The notes under the pieces: generated by a model
Databases searched by the model: none
Seen by the model: only the letters and a program-made list of their open reading frames with translations
Told to the model about the DNA's origin: nothing
Program-made: the position numbers and the translations under genes
Assembly: GCA_028275145.1 (NCBI GenBank)
Contig: JAQCNG010000071.1
Location: 1-11,495, forward strand
DNA: 11,495 nucleotides
Reading direction: 5' to 3'
Source of the DNA: Halovenus sp.
GTDB lineage: Archaea; Halobacteriota; Halobacteria; Halobacteriales; Haloarculaceae
Shown here: in pieces, positions 1,011 through 7,746 of the stretch
How positions within the stretch are numbered: the first letter of the stretch is position 1
How the letters are laid out: each line of letters starts with the position of its first letter

Positions 1011-1517
1011 ATGCGCGTCGCAGTGACCGGCACTCCGGGGACCGGCAAGACAACCGCAACCGACCTCGCGGAGACACCCCTCTCGACGGTCCATCTCAAC
1101 GACGCCATCCACGAGCACGAACTCACCGCGGGCCACGACGAGGAACGCGACTCGGCAGTCGCCGACATCGACGCTGTCGTGGACTGGCTAAACGGCCGGG
1201 ACGACATCCTCGTCGAGTCGCATCTCGCCCACCACGTCCCCGCCGACCGTGTCGTCGTCCTCAGATGTCACCCCGAGGAACTTGAGAGACGGCTGCAACG
1301 GCGGGAGGAACCGCCCGAAACCGTCGCCGAGAACGCGGAGAGCGAGGCGCTCGATATCGTCCTCGCCGAGGCTGTCGACCGGCACGGGCGAGAACAGGTC
1401 TACGAGGTCAACACGACCGACCGTGACCCTGCGTCCGTTGCTGCCGACGTCGCGGCGGTGGTCGCAGGCGAGCGCGAACCGACCGCCGGAACGGTTTCGT
1501 TCGTGGACTACCTATGA
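1011..1517 (+). CDS. AK6/Fap7-type adenylate kinase (P-loop NTPase)
   Basis: A 168-residue archaeal homologue of AK6/Fap7 (hCINAP), an atypical adenylate kinase/ATPase which in eukaryotes and archaea assists late small-subunit ribosome maturation through protein S14/S11. Seen: Walker A GTPGTGKT at residues 7-14 directly after the first beta strand, a short NMP-binding region with HLNDAIHEHEL, a strand ending in ESHLAHHVPAD (about 65-75), and the AK6-like C-terminal helix NAESEALDIVLAEA (about 108-121), where the adenine-contacting part of these proteins lies. The length fits the family (about 170-180). The ATG sits 2 bp after the hisC stop and the stop overlaps the next gene by 4 bp (ATGA), so translational coupling in one operon is likely. 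The pairing with hisC probably reflects operon packing rather than a histidine role. Confidence 0.9.
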   Translation: MRVAVTGTPGTGKTTATDLAETPLSTVHLNDAIHEHELTAGHDEERDSAVADIDAVVDWLNGRDDILVESHLAHHVPADRVVVLRCHPEELERRLQRREEPPETVAENAESEALDIVLAEAVDRHGREQVYEVNTTDRDPASVAADVAAVVAGEREPTAGTVSFVDYL

Positions 1518-2122
1518 CACTCGACGGGCTCCGACCGCTCGCAGACAGGGTGATACGCCCGTTTATCTCGGGCTCGAAACGCGCCGGGCTCACCCCCGAC
1601 GCGGTGAGTCTGCTCGCTCTGCTCGCGGCGTTCGCGGCGGCCGGAAGCTTCTATCTGGCGGGCGAGACGCGATTCGCATACCTGCTCGGCGCACTGCTCG
1701 TGTTCTGCAACGGGATGCTGGACCTGCTCGACGGCGCGCTCGCGCGCGAACTCGACACCTCCTCGTCGGCCGGTGACCTGCTCGACCACGTGCTCGACCG
1801 CTACGCCGATATCGCCGTCGTCGCGGGGCTGGCCGCCGGTATCGGGGCGTTCGCGCTCGGGTTCGCGGCCGTCACCGGGGTGTTGATGACATCCTACCTC
1901 GGCACGCAGGCCGAGGCAGTGGGGCTCGACCGGGTGTACGGCGGACTGCTCGGACGTGCGGACCGGCTGGTGCTGGTCGGCCTGGTGGCGACTGTCGCCG
2001 CCTTCGGCGACTGGACGCTCCAGGGGCTGTCCCTGGTCGGCTGGCTGCTCGTCGTGTTCGCCGCCGTCGGCCACCTGACCGCGCTCCAGCGGTTCTACTA
2101 CGCACGCCGCGACCTGGGCTGA
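1514..2122 (+). CDS. CDP-alcohol phosphatidyltransferase family membrane enzyme
   Basis: A 202-residue integral membrane enzyme of the CDP-alcohol phosphatidyltransferase class, which moves a CDP-activated (in archaea, CDP-archaeol) lipid onto an alcohol head group. The complete signature D-x2-DG-x2-AR-x8-G-x3-D-x3-D is present: D70, D73-G74, A77-R78, G87, D91 and D95; the aspartates bind the metal ions. Hydrophobic segments near 31-49, 54-70, 99-115, 118-130 and 150-185 match the usual six-helix layout. The acceptor (inositol phosphate, glycerol phosphate or serine) cannot be decided; the TPDAVSLL start and short length recall archaeal PgsA-like or archaetidylinositol-phosphate synthases. 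ATG 1514 overlaps the adk stop by 4 bp, giving coupled translation. Six bases after its TGA a small palindromic element begins, so the mRNA 3' end probably carries that hairpin. Confidence 0.9.
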   Translation: MTLDGLRPLADRVIRPFISGSKRAGLTPDAVSLLALLAAFAAAGSFYLAGETRFAYLLGALLVFCNGMLDLLDGALARELDTSSSAGDLLDHVLDRYADIAVVAGLAAGIGAFALGFAAVTGVLMTSYLGTQAEAVGLDRVYGGLLGRADRLVLVGLVATVAAFGDWTLQGLSLVGWLLVVFAAVGHLTALQRFYYARRDLG

Positions 2123-2127
2123 ACCGT

Positions 2128-2213
2128 CTCATACTGTCGGCTGTAACTTCGTGGAACGATTCGGCACCCCGGGATGCCGAAATATGCCATTGGATTACAG
2201 CCGACAGTATCAG
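2128..2213 (+). mobile_element. MITE-like palindromic element, copy 1
   Basis: An 86-bp element (core 2131-2210) whose ends are inverted repeats: CTCATACTGTCGGCTGTAA on the left and the complement of CTGATACTGTCGGCTGTAA on the right, differing at one base in 19. The centre holds a second inverted repeat, TTCGGCA / TGCCGAA, around CCCCGGGA. The arms between are not complementary, which gives the element an orientation. A second copy lies at 4135-4220 in the opposite orientation; by eye 74 of the 80 core bases agree. There is no coding capacity and no clear target duplication (both copies share CTCAT before and ATCAG after, which I count as part of the element). It is most likely a non-autonomous element mobilised by a transposase not in this window. 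A structured RNA or terminator role for the upstream operon is possible. Confidence 0.82.
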
Positions 2214-2297
2214 CCCGACTCCGCTGGCACACGCGGCCACCGCCGGAACAGGCGTGTAGTCACCGCCGGAACGGTACGTACCTTCGACCGCACGCGC

Positions 2298-2340
2298 GAG
2301 CGGGGGAAACCAAGCGGGGGAAACCAAGCGGGAGAGAGCC
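2298..2340. repeat. Short 14-bp tandem repeat upstream of the aMBF1 gene
   Basis: Three consecutive units read as RAGCGGGGGAAACC: 2298-2311 and 2312-2325 differ only at the first base, and 2326-2340 is a degenerate third (AAGCGGGAGAGAGCC). The run lies some 40 bp before the ATG-proximal promoter box. Nearby are a direct repeat CACCGCCGGAAC at 2238-2249 and 2261-2272, and a 10-bp palindrome GGTACGTACC at 2273-2282. Together they fill the space between the MITE-like element and the promoter. They could be regulator sites or slippage products; no function can be assigned. Confidence 0.6.
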
Positions 2341-2345
2341 AGCGT

Positions 2346-2358
2346 ACGATTTATCCGG
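2346..2358 (+). promoter_or_regulatory. Probable archaeal TATA box for the aMBF1 gene
   Basis: The AT-rich patch ACGATTTATCC stands out in GC-rich sequence and is centred about 26 bp before ATG 2379. This is the spacing expected for a leaderless or nearly leaderless archaeal transcript, and it supports the start at 2379 rather than an upstream extension through the repeat element. Confidence 0.5.
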
Positions 2359-2378
2359 TATGCTCTCGAAGAACGGGT

Positions 2379-2927
2379 ATGGTCCAGTGTGAGATGTGCG
2401 GGACAGAGACTGCGGACCCGAACCGTATAAAAGTCGAGGGCGCGGAACTCGACGTCTGCGACGAGTGTACCGACTTCGGGACCGAGTTGAACACGGGAGA
2501 GGACTCCTCGTCGAGTTCGACGAAGTACTCGACATCCAGCGGCGGTTCGAGCACTGGGAGTTCGGGCAGGTCGGGCTCGACGAGCACCGGCACGACGAGC
2601 ACCGGCGGCGGTGGTGGCGGACACAGCAACGACATCTACGAGGATGTCGACGAACTCGCCCAGGACTTCGACAGACAGATACGGAAGGCACGCGAGCGCG
2701 CCGACCTGACACAGTCGGAGCTGGCACAGCAACTCAACGAGAAGGCCAGTCTCATCCGCAAACTCGAACAGGGTGATACGCTCCCGACCGACAACCTCCA
2801 GAGCAAGCTGGAGCGGTACTTCGATATCGACCTCACGGCGGGTGGCGGCGTCGACGCGGACGAGTGGGAGAGCGACAGTTCCACCGGCGAGTACACGCTC
2901 GGTGACATGGTCGAACGAAAGGACTGA
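2379..2927 (+). CDS. Archaeal multiprotein bridging factor 1 (zinc ribbon plus XRE-type HTH)
   Basis: A 182-residue protein with the aMBF1 layout. An N-terminal zinc ribbon uses C4-x2-C7 and C27-x2-C30. A low-complexity Ser/Gly/Thr linker runs from about 43 to 83. A helix-turn-helix of the Cro/XRE class runs from about 96 to 150 (RKARERADLTQSELAQQLNE, then LIRKLEQGDTLP). In eukaryotes MBF1 bridges activators and TBP; the archaeal protein associates with ribosomes and transcription, and its exact role is unsettled. The frame stays open upstream to 2151, but that stretch is the MITE-like element and repeats, while ATG 2379 fits the promoter box and starts directly with the zinc-ribbon sequence MVQCEMCG. 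It is probably transcribed alone: 73 bp with its own promoter signal separates it from srp19. The long flexible linker is typical of halophile versions. Confidence 0.93.
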   Translation: MVQCEMCGTETADPNRIKVEGAELDVCDECTDFGTELNTGEDSSSSSTKYSTSSGGSSTGSSGRSGSTSTGTTSTGGGGGGHSNDIYEDVDELAQDFDRQIRKARERADLTQSELAQQLNEKASLIRKLEQGDTLPTDNLQSKLERYFDIDLTAGGGVDADEWESDSSTGEYTLGDMVERKD

Positions 2928-2963
2928 GCCGACAACGGGCGAGATTCGGGGGCGGTGAGGGAC

Positions 2964-2980
2964 CGAAAGAGAATTACTCC
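2964..2980 (+). promoter_or_regulatory. Probable promoter (BRE/TATA) of srp19-gar1
   Basis: The purine stretch CGAAAGA (BRE-like) is followed by GAATTAC, centred about 26 bp before ATG 3001. It is the only AT-rich patch between the two genes and fits leaderless transcription of srp19-gar1. Confidence 0.5.
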
Positions 2981-3000
2981 GCGCGGGCAGAACTCGGCAC

Positions 3001-3279
3001 ATGGTCGAAAACGTCATCTGGCCGGCGTATCTCGACGCGAACCTGTCGCGCTCCGAGGGGCGACGGGTGCCCGAGGACCTCGCAGTCGAGGAGCCGACAA
3101 TCGAGGAGATTGCCCGCGCGGTCAAACAGGTGGGCTACGATATCGAGGTGAACCGGGACAAGACCTACTCCCGCGAGTACGAACCACGGGGGCAGGTGCT
3201 TGTAAAGGACGCCGGCGACGCCAGCAAGAGCGACCTCCTGCAGGCAACGGCGGCCTATCTCGGCGCGATACGGGCATGA
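3001..3279 (+). CDS. srp19: Signal recognition particle protein SRP19
   Basis: A 92-residue protein that binds the tips of helices 6 and 8 of 7S SRP RNA and prepares the particle to accept SRP54, which then targets nascent membrane and secreted proteins. Seen: the conserved opening [20 protein letters not shown] (residues 5-24), which is the RNA-binding strand and loop of SRP19, followed by the [13 protein letters not shown] helix and the basic strand region [17 protein letters not shown]. The length equals the usual 90-95 of archaeal SRP19. The stop overlaps the gar1 start as ATGA, so the two are translationally coupled. The srp19-gar1 pairing joins two archaeal ribonucleoprotein components and, from memory, is common in haloarchaea. 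Confidence 0.96.
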
Positions 3280-3503
3280 GACGCGCTGGCACCGTCGTCG
3301 GCACCGCTCAGAGTGTCGCGGTCGTCCGCAACACCGACGACCAGTTTCCCGACGTCGGAACGGAACTGGTCGACGAGCGACTCGACCCTGTTGGCGAGGT
3401 TGTGGACGTGTTCGGACCCGTCGACCAGCCGTATCTCGCAGTCTCCCCGCCACCGGACCGTACTGTTGCTCGACTCGTCGGCGATGTCGTCTACGCGCGG
3501 TGA
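3276..3503 (+). CDS. gar1: H/ACA RNA-protein complex component Gar1
   Basis: A 75-residue Gar1, the small beta-barrel subunit of the H/ACA ribonucleoprotein that with Cbf5, Nop10 and L7Ae carries out guide-RNA-directed pseudouridylation of rRNA; Gar1 contacts Cbf5 and helps product turnover. Seen: an N-terminal strand [11 protein letters not shown], the core strands [30 protein letters not shown] (residues about 27-56), where GxVxDVFGPVxxPY is the family hallmark, and a short tail ending VGDVVYAR. There is no Gly/Arg-rich tail, as expected for archaeal Gar1. The start ATG 3276 overlaps the srp19 stop. The gene ends before a 60-bp gap that leads to the convergent minus-strand pair. Confidence 0.93.
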
Positions 3504-3563
3504 CCCGCCCCGCGGGTCGGCACGGTCGTGTCCGCACGCCGATCCTGCCCCGCGGGTCCGCGG

Positions 3564-3704
3564 TCAATCCCGGGGGTGGCTGTCGATGTCGTCGAGAACG
3601 GAGCCGGTGAGTTCACGCTGTGACTCCAGGCCGGTCTCGACGGACAGACGACCGGTGTCGAACAGGTCACGCTGGACGTCGAGGGCCAGAGCGAACCGGG
3701 GCAT
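3564..3704 (-). CDS. Small 46-aa protein coupled to the AbrB-domain gene (phasin-like fragment?)
   Basis: Reading on the minus strand from ATG 3704-3702 gives 46 residues beginning MPRFALALDVQRDLFD and ending DDIDSHPRD before TGA 3566-3564. The start overlaps the stop of the upstream AbrB-domain gene (TGATG), a strong sign of coupled translation and of a real gene. The sequence is amphipathic and helix-prone, with QRDLFDTGRLSVETGLESQREL resembling the openings of phasin-like helical proteins next to AbrB-type PhaR genes in haloarchaea. The protein is much shorter than a typical phasin (about 120-160 residues), and the DNA past the stop is GC-rich with no obvious continuation in another frame. 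It may therefore be a truncated remnant or a genuine short partner. The coding call is fairly secure; the function is only a suggestion. Confidence 0.6.
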   Translation of the reverse strand: MPRFALALDVQRDLFDTGRLSVETGLESQRELTGSVLDDIDSHPRD

Positions 3705-4015
3705 CAGTCGTCGTCGCGTTTGCGTTTGACCGGGAACACGACCGCCTGCACGATGTCACCCTCCTCGATGTCCAGGGTCTCACGCTCCGCGTCGGGGATG
3801 CTGATGCGCCCGCCGCTCTGGACGCGGGTCTTGAACGTGGCCGTCTGACTCATTGCCCCGAGCTGGTTCATATCCATGCCCGCACCCGAGCCAGTTCCGG
3901 CCCCGAGCATCTGTCTGACCAGTTCCTGCTGGGTTTCGACTGCCTGCTCCCCGGTCTCTGCGAACAGCTTGAATACGTCCGGCGGCCCTGAGTACCCCTG
4001 GTCGTCGTCTGACAT
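3704..4015 (-). CDS. AbrB/SpoVT-domain protein, PhaR-like
   Basis: 103 residues in two parts. The N-terminal part (about 13-56) has a helical stretch VFKLFAETGEQAVETQQELV and a Gly/Met-rich linker. The C-terminal part (about 61-97) is a swapped-hairpin AbrB DNA-binding domain, with KTRVQSGGRISIPDAERETL followed by the family's D-x-x-E-GD-V pattern. From memory, Haloferax mediterranei PhaR has the same order and controls polyhydroxyalkanoate granule genes with its downstream partner PhaP; here a coupled small ORF follows but no phaE/phaC is in view, so the PHA link is inference. The frame is open further upstream to 4111, but ATG 4015 is chosen because a TATA box lies about 31 bp before it. 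The Asp/Lys/Arg-rich C-terminus is ordinary for halophiles. Confidence 0.82.
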   Translation of the reverse strand: MSDDDQGYSGPPDVFKLFAETGEQAVETQQELVRQMLGAGTGSGAGMDMNQLGAMSQTATFKTRVQSGGRISIPDAERETLDIEEGDIVQAVVFPVKRKRDDD

Positions 4016-4040
4016 CTGTTGAGTTCGGGTACTTCCCACC

Positions 4041-4050
4041 GAGATATAAA
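4041..4050 (-). promoter_or_regulatory. TATA box for the AbrB-domain gene
   Basis: On the minus strand the sequence CCTTTATATCTC is a clear archaeal TATA element, centred about 31 bp before ATG 4015. This predicts a leader of only a few bases. It is the best-formed promoter in the window and fixes the gene start. Confidence 0.68.
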
Positions 4051-4134
4051 GGTTGTGAGAGAACCCCACTCTGAACCACCTGGTGGTACGTGATGGCGAC
4101 CCACCGTTCACCGGCCCGTCGAGACTGCCGGCAA

Positions 4135-4220
4135 CTCATACTGTCAGCTGTAAGCCAATGACACATTTCGGCACCCCGGGGGGCCGAATCGTTCCACGAA
4201 GTTACAGCCGACAGTATCAG
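4135..4220 (-). mobile_element. MITE-like palindromic element, copy 2 (inverted)
   Basis: An 86-bp element (core 4138-4217), the reverse complement of copy 1 at 2128-2213 with about six base differences over the 80-bp core. The ends are CTCATACTGTC and GACAGTATCAG. The central TTCGGC / GCCGAA inverted repeat now flanks CCCCGGGG. One end carries a change (CTGTCAGC against CTGTCGGC) that weakens the outer stem by one pair. It sits 120 bp upstream of the AbrB-domain gene and just before the 25-bp tandem array leading to the ABC transporter. The 409 bp between the start codons at 4015 and 4425 contain no gene: only this element, the array and two divergent promoters. Confidence 0.82.
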
Positions 4221-4237
4221 TGTTCCCGTCGTCGTCA

Positions 4238-4380
4238 AGTCGGTCCGGAACCGCTCCGAACTGACCGGTCTGGAACCGGTCCAGCCTGACCGGTCTGGAA
4301 CCGCTCCGAACCGACCGGTCCGGAACCGGTCCAGCCTGACCGGTCCGGAACCGCATCGACCCGGTCTGGGACCGCTGAAA
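4238..4380. repeat. 25-bp tandem repeat array upstream of the ABC transporter
   Basis: Five 25-bp units lie head to tail at 4238-4262, 4263-4287, 4288-4312, 4313-4337 and 4338-4362, with a decaying sixth to about 4380. Units 2-5 start with the 8-bp palindrome GACCGGTC, then YGGAACCG. The remaining 9 bases alternate between a CTCCGAAC type (units 1 and 3, altered in 5) and a GTCCAGCCT type (units 2 and 4), so the array is also a 50-bp higher-order repeat. CTGGA and TCCAG arms around ACCGG give unit 2 a further perfect inverted repeat. The array ends about 4 bp before the AT-rich promoter box of the exporter gene. There are no spacers as in CRISPR, and the frames through it are not gene-like. 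An operator array or a slippage product are the two readings. Confidence 0.85.
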
Positions 4381-4383
4381 TCA

Positions 4384-4396
4384 CAATAATTAATGC
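4384..4396 (+). promoter_or_regulatory. Probable promoter of the ABC exporter gene
   Basis: CAATAATTAATG is the most AT-rich patch in the region, centred about 35 bp before ATG 4425. The predicted transcript would start near 4415 with a leader of about 10 bases. The 25-bp repeat array ends immediately upstream, where BRE or activator contacts would be. Confidence 0.55.
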
Positions 4397-4424
4397 TCTA
4401 CTTCCCCGAAAAGTCGTAGTTCAG

Positions 4425-6344
4425 ATGAGCACGGACCAGCAACTCGATGTGGAGTACATAGAGGAGTACCGGGAGGATGTCGACCGTCCTCTCTGGCAGT
4501 TGTTCCAGCGGTACGGGCACGGGAGCAGGCGGTGGTTCGTCCTGGGTATACTCGCCTCTATCGGCACCCGATTTGCCTCGCTGGTTCCACCGGTGTTGCT
4601 GGGGGTGGCTATCGACGCCATCTTCCGGGAGGACCAGGCGTTCAATCTCCCGGCCGTCCCGCAGTCGTGGCTCCCTGAGGCGACGATGGCACAGTTCTGG
4701 TTTATTATCGGCGTGATGGCTGTGGTCATGATCGGACAGGCACTGCTGAACTTCGTGCGGATGTCCTCGCTGAACCTGTTCTCACACCGCGTGAAACACG
4801 AGGTCCGGACCGCGACGTATCAGCGGATGCAACGGCTGGATATGGAGTTTTTCAACGAGGTCCAGACCGGCGAACTGATGTCGATTCTCTCGAACGACAC
4901 CAACCGGCTGGAGCTGTTTCTCGACAACATGTTCGGCGAGTCCATCCAGTTGAGCGTGCTCATCGTCGGCATCTCGCTGGTGCTTTTCTGGTTCAACCCG
5001 CAACTCGCGCTGGTGACGCTCGTGGTGGTGCCGCTCGCGGCCGTGTTCACCTACTGGTTCATGCGACTCGCCGAGCAACGGTACACCGACATCCGCCAGT
5101 CGGTCGGTGACCTCAACAGCAGACTGGAGAACAATCTCAACGGCATCCAGGTCATAAAGGCCTCGAACACCGAAGACTACGAGGACGAGCGCGTCAGAGA
5201 CCACTCCTACACGTACTTTCGTCTCGACTGGCTCGCGCTCCGCCTGAACTTCATCTACCGGCCCGGTCTGCAGGCGCTGACCTCGCTCTCGTTTATCGCG
5301 ACGTTCATTGTCGGCGGTGTCTGGATTCTGGACGGCCCGCCCGGTCCGCTGACCGGCGACCTCACCGTGGGGACGCTAGTCATCTTCCTGCTTCTGACCC
5401 AGCGACTGGTCGACCCGCTCGCCCAGATGAGCAACATCGTCGACCGTTACGAGGACGCCCGCGCCTCGACAAAGCGTATCCTCGGTATCATGAACCTGCC
5501 AATCGACATCGAGGAACCCGAGGACGCCGCTGCACTGGGCGGTGTCGACGGCGAGGTGTCGTTCGACGACATCACCTTCGCCTACGACCGGCAGAACGTG
5601 CTCGAGAACGTTGATTTCGACGTCGAACCCGGAGAGACGGTCGGTCTCGTCGGACCGACCGGTGCCGGCAAGACGACGATTGTGAAGTTGCTCCTGCGCC
5701 TGTACGATGTCGACCGGGGGGCCGTCCGGGTTGACGGCCGCGACGTGCGCGAGGTGACGCTGTCGAGTCTCCGGGACTCGATGGGGTACGTCGGCCAGGA
5801 GAACTTCCTGTTCGACGGGAGCGTCGAGGAGAACATCGCCTACGGCTCGTTCGACACCGACCACGACGAGGTGGTCGAGGCGGCCAGGCGGGCCCAGGCC
5901 CACCAGTTCATCACGAACCTTCCGGAGGGGTACGGCACCCAGGTGGGTGAGCGCGGCGTGAAACTCTCCGGCGGCCAGCGCCAGCGGGTCGCAATCGCGC
6001 GGACCCTGCTCCAACAGCCCGCGATCATGATATTCGACGAGGCCACCTCGGCGGTCGACACGGAGACGGAGATGCTCATCCAGCGGTCTATCGACGACAT
6101 CGCCGCCGACCGGACGACGTTCGTCATCGCCCACCGACTCTCGACGGTCAGGGACGCCGATACGATTCTGGTGCTGGAGGACGGCGAAATCGTCGAGCGG
6201 GGCACCCACGACGAACTGCTCGCGGTCGACGGCCTGTACGCCAATCTCTGGCGGGTCCAGGCCGGCGAAATCGGCAAACTCCCCGACGACTTCGTCGAGC
6301 AGGCGAGCAGACGGGTCGCACAGCAGAACGTCGAGACCGACTGA
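4425..6344 (+). CDS. ABC transporter ATP-binding protein/permease (exporter half-transporter)
   Basis: A 639-residue type IV (MsbA/ABCB-like) half-transporter, fusing one six-helix membrane domain (about 37-330) to one nucleotide-binding domain (about 375-612). It is expected to work as a homodimer or with a partner. Seen: Walker A GPTGAGKTT at 410-418, Q-loop Q458 in GYVGQENFLFDG, signature LSGGQ at 514-518, Walker B IMIFDE at 534-539 with catalytic E539, D-loop SAVD, and switch H570 in IAHRLS. All catalytic parts are intact. The substrate (lipid, drug or peptide) cannot be read from the sequence. An acidic extension of about 30 residues precedes the first helix and about 25 follow the ATPase domain, normal for haloarchaea. 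It appears monocistronic, with its own promoter and repeat array upstream and a convergent hydrolase 12 bp after the stop. Confidence 0.95.
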   Translation: MSTDQQLDVEYIEEYREDVDRPLWQLFQRYGHGSRRWFVLGILASIGTRFASLVPPVLLGVAIDAIFREDQAFNLPAVPQSWLPEATMAQFWFIIGVMAVVMIGQALLNFVRMSSLNLFSHRVKHEVRTATYQRMQRLDMEFFNEVQTGELMSILSNDTNRLELFLDNMFGESIQLSVLIVGISLVLFWFNPQLALVTLVVVPLAAVFTYWFMRLAEQRYTDIRQSVGDLNSRLENNLNGIQVIKASNTEDYEDERVRDHSYTYFRLDWLALRLNFIYRPGLQALTSLSFIATFIVGGVWILDGPPGPLTGDLTVGTLVIFLLLTQRLVDPLAQMSNIVDRYEDARASTKRILGIMNLPIDIEEPEDAAALGGVDGEVSFDDITFAYDRQNVLENVDFDVEPGETVGLVGPTGAGKTTIVKLLLRLYDVDRGAVRVDGRDVREVTLSSLRDSMGYVGQENFLFDGSVEENIAYGSFDTDHDEVVEAARRAQAHQFITNLPEGYGTQVGERGVKLSGGQRQRVAIARTLLQQPAIMIFDEATSAVDTETEMLIQRSIDDIAADRTTFVIAHRLSTVRDADTILVLEDGEIVERGTHDELLAVDGLYANLWRVQAGEIGKLPDDFVEQASRRVAQQNVETD

Positions 6345-7331: not shown

Positions 7332-7746
7332 ATGCATCGGAGACAGATCATACTGGGCACTGGAACCGCAGTGGTCGCCGGACTGGCGGGCCGTCTCGGG
7401 GGGCGGCGGGGACGGCGGGAACGACGGACCGGAGGCAGTCGTGGAATCGTTCTACGAGGAGACCAGCGACCTCGGCTCGGACGCCGACGTCCAGGAGATT
7501 CTCGACGCGACGGATGGCCTCCTGCACAGTGAGTCGCCGATTCGGGCGGCGCTTGCGTTCATCGCTGTCGAGGATATCGAAGCGGAGTTCGTCGGTCAGT
7601 TCGGGAGTGTCGACCAGGAGGTACTCGAAGCGGTCGCCGAGGAAAACATCGCTGTCGAGGCGGACCTATCGGTCGACGGTGGGGAAGACCGGACCGAGAC
7701 CCACCTCGTCACGACAGAGGACGGTAACTGGGTGGTGTTCACGTGA
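7332..7746 (+). pseudogene. Lipoprotein-like gene, frameshifted and lacking the lipobox cysteine
   Basis: ATG 7332 opens a signal-peptide-like start, MHRRQIILGTGTAVVAGLAG, followed by Arg where a haloarchaeal lipobox would carry Cys (LAG-R; CGT against expected TGT). The frame then turns into implausible Arg/Gly sequence. Removing one G from the six-G run near 7398-7403 restores a Gly/Asp-rich linker (LGGGGDGGNDGPEAV) leading into the good downstream frame that is open to TGA 7746: VVESFYEETSDLGSDADV, continuing to THLVTTEDGNWVVF. That C-terminal part resembles small secreted domains of about 100 residues with an NTF2-like look (substrate unknown). Two independent lesions suggest decay, though a sequencing error in the G-run would explain the frameshift. 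The 3' end overlaps the convergent Bax1 gene by 8 bp. Translation from GTG 7441 would give a 101-residue cytosolic remnant. Confidence 0.72.

Follow-up and report, generated by a model that had tools for sequence, protein, structure and literature searches.

In a contig of Halovenus sp., two near-identical palindromic repeats lie in opposite orientation around a block of core genes that includes srp19 and gar1, raising the question of what these repeats are and whether recombination between them inverts the block. The window is the whole stretch of DNA analyzed, 11,495 nt long.

The two copies and the genes between them

Two repeat arms of 86 nt (2128-2213 and 4135-4220) share 91% identity and stand 1921 nt apart, bearing out the earlier note's description of two inverted, closely similar copies around core genes; the next longest inverted repeat among the matches listed for the window has 47 nt at 70% identity. 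Each arm contains an element proper of 78 bp, TACTG...CAGTA, with precise ends (Table 1). The borders CTCAT and ATCAG, previously taken for those ends, turned out to be target bases plus the TCA duplication, since each copy is bordered by the same trinucleotide read in the same direction (TCA..TCA or TGA..TGA), which is non-palindromic and varies from copy to copy. The outer C and G of the window copies thus belong to the target preference and not to the element.

Table 1. Features of the two copies and their surroundings in the window
Feature	Position	Strand	Basis or remark
CDP-alcohol phosphatidyltransferase gene	1514..2122	+	PF01066; stop ends 6 bp before the TCA of copy 1
Target-site duplication TCA, left of copy 1	2129..2131	.	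read directly; target C-TCA-G with C2128 and G2213
Copy 1, element proper (TACTG...CAGTA), 78 bp	2132..2209	+	ends from 171 copies compared and 3-bp duplications
Left terminal inverted repeat of copy 1, 15 bp	2132..2146	+	helix 1
X arm, conserved subterminal arm of copy 1, one side only	2147..2163	+	alignment A1
Inner palindrome of copy 1 (TTCGGC...GCCGAA)	2160..2181	.	helix 2; both-side changes in 7/9 pairs
Right terminal inverted repeat of copy 1, 15 bp	2195..2209	-	helix 1
Target-site duplication TCA, right of copy 1	2210..2212	.	read directly
Block between the copies (context, outside the element)	2379..4015	.	profile scan; collinear in G015
aMBF1-like HTH gene	2379-2927	+	profile scan
srp19	3001-3279	+	profile scan
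gar1	3276-3503	+	profile scan
46-aa ORF	3564-3704	-	without Pfam hit
AbrB-like gene	3704-4015	-	without Pfam hit; AbrB is the earlier note's label
Target-site duplication TCA, left of copy 2	4136..4138	.	read directly; target C-TCA-G with C4135 and G4220
Copy 2, element proper, 78 bp	4139..4216	-	opposite orientation to copy 1
Inner palindrome of copy 2	4167..4188	.	folding and helix comparison
Target-site duplication TCA, right of copy 2	4217..4219	.	read directly

Each window copy is near-palindromic and folds far better than its own shuffles, copy 1 reaching -42.4 kcal/mol as RNA (z -8.4; z -6.8 as DNA) and copy 2 -34.7 kcal/mol (z -5.6). Across 67 copies, 93.5% of the cells in the 15-bp terminal inverted repeats are paired, and the inner palindrome is kept through compensatory changes, seven of its nine pairs having changed on either side. 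The overall form is that of a MITE-like double hairpin. The X arm reads CTTCGTGGAACGATTCG in copy 1 and STTCGTRAMGATATYCG in relatives (alignment A1). An Rfam search of the window returned no match.

The gene list of the earlier note stands for the aMBF1-like, SRP19, and Gar1 genes on the plus strand, while its minus-strand "AbrB pair" consists of two ORFs without Pfam hit. Its further idea, that recombination between the inverted copies could turn the srp19/gar1 block around, draws on the geometry of the two arms, their length, identity, orientation, and spacing. However, G015, the sole relative from the same genus in which the block was seen undivided, keeps the order and orientation of the window, with pgsA, aMBF1, srp19, and gar1 on the plus strand and the AbrB-like gene on the minus strand, and in G003 each half of the block that was seen agrees with this arrangement. 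Moreover, the other host copies found by BLAST lie on other contigs, the one other pair sharing a contig (C276) is in direct orientation, and there is no recombinase among the seven proteins scanned in 1514-6344. The comparison of gene orientation over 2214-4134 with these two relatives revealed no flip, and an inversion switch is highly improbable. The two copies around srp19 and gar1 are very likely independent insertions.

A dispersed element flanked by duplicated TNA trinucleotides

The family is dispersed well beyond this locus. In the host assembly, BLAST places it at 16 sites, and the stretches examined hold 18 distinct copies, so that there are at least 18; 17 of the 59 genomes in the set of relatives match, the host included. 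Of 391 Halobacteria genomes, 61 carry the exact end pattern, and these represent 20 of 86 genera, whereas the reversed control pattern has no match in the same 391 genomes. Genome G020 has 93 pairs of ends in the 86% covered, or 89 once nested double counts are taken out. Paired ends are absent from 34 loci matching window positions 1514-4460 in same-genus relatives, and neither the phage records nor three viral-contig scans contain a match to the element. Copies are inserted in both orientations with no bias seen (48:64, P 0.16), and among loci found by pattern most are 78 or 108 bp long.

Insertion is accompanied by a 3-bp duplication of the form TNA, which is TCA in both window copies. Identical TNA trinucleotides stand on both sides of 14/18 copies in the host assembly, 93/110 within the 115 loci found by pattern, and 133/171 distinct copies from 19 genomes or records; a further 37 of these 171 have unlike flanks, in a set that tolerates three mismatches per end and includes at least one false member. 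In G020, identical trinucleotides flank 77 of the 93 pairs, mainly as TGA/TGA (37) or TCA/TCA (31), with a single mixed TGA/TCA. A TA-only duplication in the style of IS630 is not favored, since the direct repeat comprises three bases and the mixed TGA/TCA type is found in 1/93. The preferred target is C-TSA-G, with C before the duplication in 126 of 194 cases and G after it in 107 of 194. A comparison of two Halomicrobium plasmids, and hence of another genus, revealed empty sites for four of the 11 copies tested (for the two window sites, the spacers in relatives are too diverged to align); at two of these four, the trinucleotide differs from the filled one in its middle base.

The family is therefore short, non-coding, multi-copy, and dispersed, with terminal inverted repeats and target-site duplications, as expected of MITEs. 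The earlier suggestion of non-autonomous transposon derivatives is supported by dispersed copies, precise ends, target-site duplications, empty sites, and the lack of paired ends in the relatives' loci read. The whole-element hairpin, backed by covariation, would also suit a Y1 transposase (IS200/IS605, RAYT-type) that moves a folded single strand, as for REPs or the PATEs of Haloquadratum, but this is improbable, because IS605-type elements and PATEs have been described as lacking target duplication (PMC3119063), whereas most copies here carry one of 3 bp.

Insertion at stop codons

Insertions are in strong excess at the 3' ends of genes, with the duplication itself forming the stop codon. 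In 24 of 75 G020 copies, the 3-bp duplication appears to serve as stop codon for the adjacent gene, against an expectation of 8-10% once sites are weighted by the target motif (P 4e-9 to 2e-7). Counted per TNA site on our own gene calls for G020, there are 23 insertions in 1158 sites at stops against 15 in 2243 sites 1-60 bp downstream (P 9e-4) and 29 in 14857 sites farther away (P 2e-13), with 6 in 48244 sites inside genes. When sites are weighted by motif, stops exceed the 60 bp that follow them by a modest margin (23/38 vs 41% expected, P 0.011). A looser test applied elsewhere, which asks for an in-frame open run of 100 codons, gave 23/53 copies in one set and 31/58 in a second (P 7e-11), against 16% in the control. 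On annotated plasmids, copies sit at stop codons in 5/10 cases in LC1Hm and 4/8 in pHmuk01, two of these sites probably being common to both. Thus, among the insertions examined, roughly one in three to one in two occupies a stop-codon position and leaves the gene intact; neither window copy is in such a position.

This overrepresentation at stop codons and over the 60 bp just past genes, along with the very stable folding and the both-side changes in the inner palindrome, could also be read as the mark of a structured 3'-end element under selection (mRNA stabilizer, terminator, translation damper, or REP-like), with mobility secondary. However, either end of the element may face the gene (25:24), and 48 of the 93 G020 copies were classed as lying outside genes and more than 30 bp from any gene end. 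With the clean duplications, the empty sites, and the absence of paired ends from the relatives' loci also against it, we consider a regulatory role of this kind unlikely.

We instead favor a non-autonomous mobile element and consider this explanation as a whole very likely; its two inferred parts are a trans-acting transposase and survival at stop codons. The transposase would probably be a DDE enzyme with a 3-nt staggered cut that inserts the element into TNA after recognizing both its terminal repeats and its conserved subterminal arm. Both TGA and TAA fit the TNA form, so that an insertion at a stop codon would remake the stop; the gene would therefore be unharmed and the insertion would survive, and most insertions inside genes would be lost. 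Landing on stop codons would thus offer a selfish element a simple route through gene-dense genomes without harm. It is possible, though rather doubtful, that target choice and not survival alone steers the element to terminal TGA or TAA, and that a perhaps host-encoded enzyme recognizes more than the terminal sequence, namely the folded hairpin with its fixed length of 78 or 108 bp; if so, the 3-bp duplication would restore the stop codon at targeted gene ends.

The missing partner and comparison with known systems

Neither the 86% of G020 covered, nor the 115 pattern-found loci, nor six plasmid neighborhoods yielded an autonomous partner, the complete insertion sequence sharing these ends that the earlier note proposed to look for. 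A self-comparison of G020 showed no repeat of at least 500 bp with these ends. Nine long end pairs in this genome were traced to a copy split by another insertion sequence, to ends of separate copies, or to a chance partner; one further weak long pair (180519-181265, 11/16 bases) falls outside these nine. Eleven ends in the 115 loci have no near partner; they belong to copies that are decayed or reduced to one half, lie at the end of a contig, or were taken for chance matches. Loosely paired long spans with equal flanks number five, versus none in the reversed control, and the spans viewed in detail (L332, L349, and L350) are not transposons with a gene; in L332, a Clostridiales contig, ordinary genes fill the 3.6 kb between loosely matched ends. 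The six plasmid neighborhoods, chosen at one-sided or partial matches, yielded one clean 78-bp copy and otherwise decayed or variant relatives.

TNA duplications are typical of IS1031-type elements of the IS5 family and of eukaryotic PIF/Harbinger elements. The present element shares this 3-bp TNA duplication but differs from them in that no matching transposase was detected: DDE_Tnp_4 was found in 0/59 genomes and DDE_Tnp_1_2 in 0/12. DDE_Tnp_1_3 appeared below the cut-off only, in 11/59 genomes, and DDE_Tnp_1 matched in 44/59; the covered part of G020 yielded no insertion sequence with these ends. Bacterial REPs and REPINs are likewise extragenic palindromes, often near stop codons. To our knowledge, however, REPs make no target duplication, whereas the present element has a precise one that can be the stop codon itself, which also sets it apart from Y1-mobilized elements.

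Among haloarchaeal elements, the MITEHsal2 copies listed in PMC10264941 are 411-413 bp with 6-8 bp duplications, and ISH2, at about 520 bp (PMC3119063), has termini related to those of its mobilizer ISH8. They resemble the present element in being short, without transposase, and flanked by a target duplication, but differ from its 78 or 108 bp, its 3-bp TNA, and its lack of a parent in the regions covered. The SMR-A and SMR-B repeats of Haloquadratum walsbyi, according to PMC3119063, are about 80-110 bp long, with prominent terminal inverted repeats and up to tens of copies; they are too short for a transposase, their terminal repeats are unlike those of known transposons, and their mobilization is called enigmatic. 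Compared by this description only, the two share a haloarchaeal host, small size, terminal inverted repeats, multiple copies, and no coding room. In contrast, the SMRs are reported there without target duplication, SMR-A preferring IS605/PATE palindromes, and the present element combines a 3-bp TNA duplication with the C-TSA-G and stop-codon pattern.

The present family was not recognized in the open-access literature surveyed, judged by titles and abstract openings. We conclude that it is a new family of a known kind, MITE-like, with an unusual landing pattern, whose ends are present in 20 of the 86 haloarchaeal genera surveyed, yet for which no enzyme was found. It bears on the unexplained mobility of the Haloquadratum "small mobile repeats", whose "no duplication" merits a second look, because a TNA beside a TAC... 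end is easily misread as part of the inverted repeat.

Element boundaries, target duplication and empty sites

The two inverted copies described in the earlier note are real: their 86-nt arms are 91% complementary at a spacing of 1921 nt, and the window's next inverted repeat is far weaker (47 nt, 70%). Copies of this repeat read C-TCA-TACTG...CAGTA-TCA-G or C-TGA-TACTG...CAGTA-TGA-G, placing the borders outside the palindrome, since the two sides are direct repeats and palindrome membership would need complementary ones. The CTCAT and ATCAG sequences once taken for conserved, precise borders are therefore target sequence plus duplication, and the element itself is 78 bp long.

Features of the window discussed in this part
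Feature	Position	Length
Inverted arm, copy 1	2128-2213	86 nt
Inverted arm, copy 2	4135-4220	86 nt
Element proper, copy 1	2132-2209	78 bp
Element proper, copy 2	4139-4216	78 bp
Tandem array	4241-4365	25-bp unit
ORF	7332-7532	
ORF	7441-7746	

Copy 2 is followed by the tandem array, whose unit is rich in CCGGTC/GGAACCG, and then by the ABC transporter gene. The two ORFs overlap in different frames and resemble a single short exported protein interrupted by a frame break, which is either genuine or a sequencing error.

Mapping the ends in a 2.9-Mb single-contig relative (G020; 86% of the sequence examined), we found 93 end pairs, or 89 without nested double counts. Identical trinucleotides flank 77 of the 93 (37 TGA, 31 TCA, 5 TAA, 3 TTA and 1 TGC) and mixed TGA/TCA flanks occur in one. 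A set of 171 distinct copies, drawn from 19 genomes or records with a tolerance of 3 mismatches per end and including at least one false member, splits into 133 with the same TNA on both sides, 37 whose flanks differ and one with some other identical trinucleotide. Identical TNA also flanks 14 of 18 copies in the host assembly and 93 of 110 distinct copies in 115 pattern-found loci, which partly overlap the 171-copy set. Among 194 copies with a TNA duplication, the target is preceded by C in 126 and followed by G in 107, CTGAG being commonest (57).

Empty sites were sought in another genus than that of the window, in the related Halomicrobium plasmids pLC1Hm-01 and pHmuk01, both read whole. 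When the flanks of 11 copies were joined and aligned to the other plasmid, four gave an alignment that spans the junction and has the trinucleotide once. Of these, the one for LC1Hm 12941-13018 is clearest: it runs gapless over 117 nt, with a single CTGAG versus TGA-element-TGA in the carrier. The site for LC1Hm 17150 reaches 75% over 116 nt, and for pHmuk01 59005 and 168252 the alignments extend for some 600 nt at about 88 and 92%; at LC1Hm 17150 and pHmuk01 59005 the empty and filled sites differ in the middle base of the trinucleotide (TGA for TAA or TAA for TGA). Of the other seven, one is matched by a decayed copy at the corresponding position, one lies within another repeat and has several matches, two matched on one side only and three had no match. 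At the two sites of the window, the spacers in same-genus relatives are too diverged for alignment; none of the 34 same-genus loci matched by window 1514-4460 holds an end pair, and five hold one loose end.

Anatomy and distribution of the family

From 119 distinct copies of 76-80 bp, 88 were picked and 67 aligned, leaving out 21 (among them copies with other interiors, one false match and some ordinary copies). In this alignment, pairing holds in 93.5% of cells for the 15-bp terminal repeats and in 92.3% for the inner 9-pair palindrome, and both sides have changed in 13 of 24 pairs overall and 7 of 9 inner pairs. For covariation, the alignment scores 0.291 and shuffles 0.131, none of 500 reaching the observed value, and the score is at most 0.091 when the partner is slid by 1-3 columns; because shuffles leave relatedness in place, this is support rather than proof. 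A conserved arm, STTCGTRAMGATATYCG, lies between the two palindromes on one side only. Copies fall into two narrow size classes, exactly 78 bp (70/110) and exactly 108 bp (12/110), and a second end class, TACGG..., with a different arm, is likewise 78-79 bp. Terminal sequence varies among subfamilies, and both ends of one copy match. The 78- and 108-bp sizes recur across subfamilies with different interiors. G020 also carries nested 93-bp copies (C1:16788-16880, 1541262-1541354 and 2696224-2696316), one element being inserted at TAA within the other's terminal repeat, and a 78-bp-type element (C1:2844057-2845547) split by a 1403-bp insertion sequence with a 458-codon open frame and a 10-bp duplication, CTTTACGAAC.

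The repeat is multi-copy and dispersed. Copy 1 matches 16 places in the host assembly (366 contigs, completeness 77%) by BLAST, and BLAST with a terminal-repeat search gives 18 distinct copies in the stretches examined; among the 59 genomes of the relatives set, 17 have a match, the host included. Of 391 Halobacteria genomes, 61 carry the exact end pattern TNATACTGYCGGCTGTAA, from 20 of 86 genera; its reversed control gave no match, and a named-genome scan with the pattern gave at least 115 stretches. Carriers among the 80 matches listed include Salinibaculum litoreum, Haloarcula rara, H. amylolytica, Halomicrobium katesii, Halorussus amylolyticus, Halostella pelagica and Natrarchaeobius chitinivorans; two bacterial records that were also listed (L274, L332) proved on inspection to lack the element. 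Two plasmids of near-equal size (L376 and L377; 316,071 and 316,107 bp), from Halostella pelagica and Salinibaculum litoreum of different families, hold the same copy within the same 220 nt near position 3003; the element may thus pass from genus to genus on plasmids. The relatives G017 and G006 (L043, L045, L055) contain a related family whose ends are TACTGTCGGACGTAA; in G017, 14 listed matches to one and the same 28-29-nt stretch suggest recent activity.

Insertion at gene ends

Copy 1 lies 6 bp downstream of a stop codon, and neither window copy lies on one. With G020 genes called by a simple home-made codon-usage caller, the adjoining trinucleotide is a gene's stop codon in 29 of 93 copies. 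In the strict set of 75 TNA-duplication copies, 24 are on a stop versus 8-10% expected (P 4e-9 to 2e-7) under a model that distributes copies over stops and non-coding TNA sites by a target motif derived from the remaining copies. Per TNA site, the 73 insertions placed give 23/1158 at stops, 15/2243 in the first 60 bp downstream, 29/14857 at greater distances and 6/48244 within genes. Base context accounts for part of the excess at the stop: within 0-60 bp, the stop would be expected to take 41% and takes 23 of 38 (P 0.011).

A caller-free test, scoring at least 100 open codons ending in frame at the duplicated trinucleotide, gave 31/77 in G020, 23/53 outside it (15 and 8 in the other two frames), 31/58 at further loci (18 and 7; P 7e-11) and 43/89 over all 115 loci. 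Control TGA/TCA sites in the same loci, coding ones included, reached 16% in frame and, in the two alternative frames, 30% and 37-39%. On the two annotated plasmids, the last base of an annotated CDS lies directly next to 5 of 10 copies (pLC1Hm-01) and 4 of 8 (pHmuk01), with two sites probably common to both plasmids. Orientation looks random (48:64, and 25:24 relative to the gene).

Mobilisation and comparison with known repeats

Dispersed copies, duplications and empty sites support the proposal that the copies are non-autonomous transposon derivatives; a target preference and a gene-end excess are also shown. An enzyme acting in trans would move the element, probably a DDE transposase, to which the 3-nt length of the duplication points; IS1031-like IS5 elements and PIF/Harbinger typically duplicate TNA. 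DDE_Tnp_4 had no match in 59 genomes and DDE_Tnp_1_2 none in 12, and DDE_Tnp_1_3 gave sub-cut-off matches only, in 11 of 59. DDE_Tnp_1 is found in 44 of 59, with one weak match in the host and none in the same-genus G003, and its loci were read in G020. Recognition of folded DNA is possible, since covariation spans the whole hairpin.

Recombination between the two inverted copies could, in principle, occur. The inversion of the srp19/gar1 segment envisaged in the earlier note was not seen in the two same-genus relatives compared: G015 has pgsA, aMBF1, srp19, gar1 and the AbrB-like gene in the order and orientation of the window, and G003 has the halves of the block on different contigs, each consistent with the window arrangement.

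In the accessible portions of the open-access literature on haloarchaeal MITEs and SMRs, stop-codon insertion and the terminal sequence, we recognised no description of this 78-bp family. A review of prokaryotic MITEs, as far as its available text goes, gives few archaeal cases and one MITE lying mostly in 3' untranslated regions (PMC10969869). Among described repeats, the closest, compared by description, are the Haloquadratum small mobile repeats; the available part of the report on them calls their mobilisation enigmatic and states that they make no target duplication (PMC3119063), whereas the element here has a 3-bp TNA duplication.
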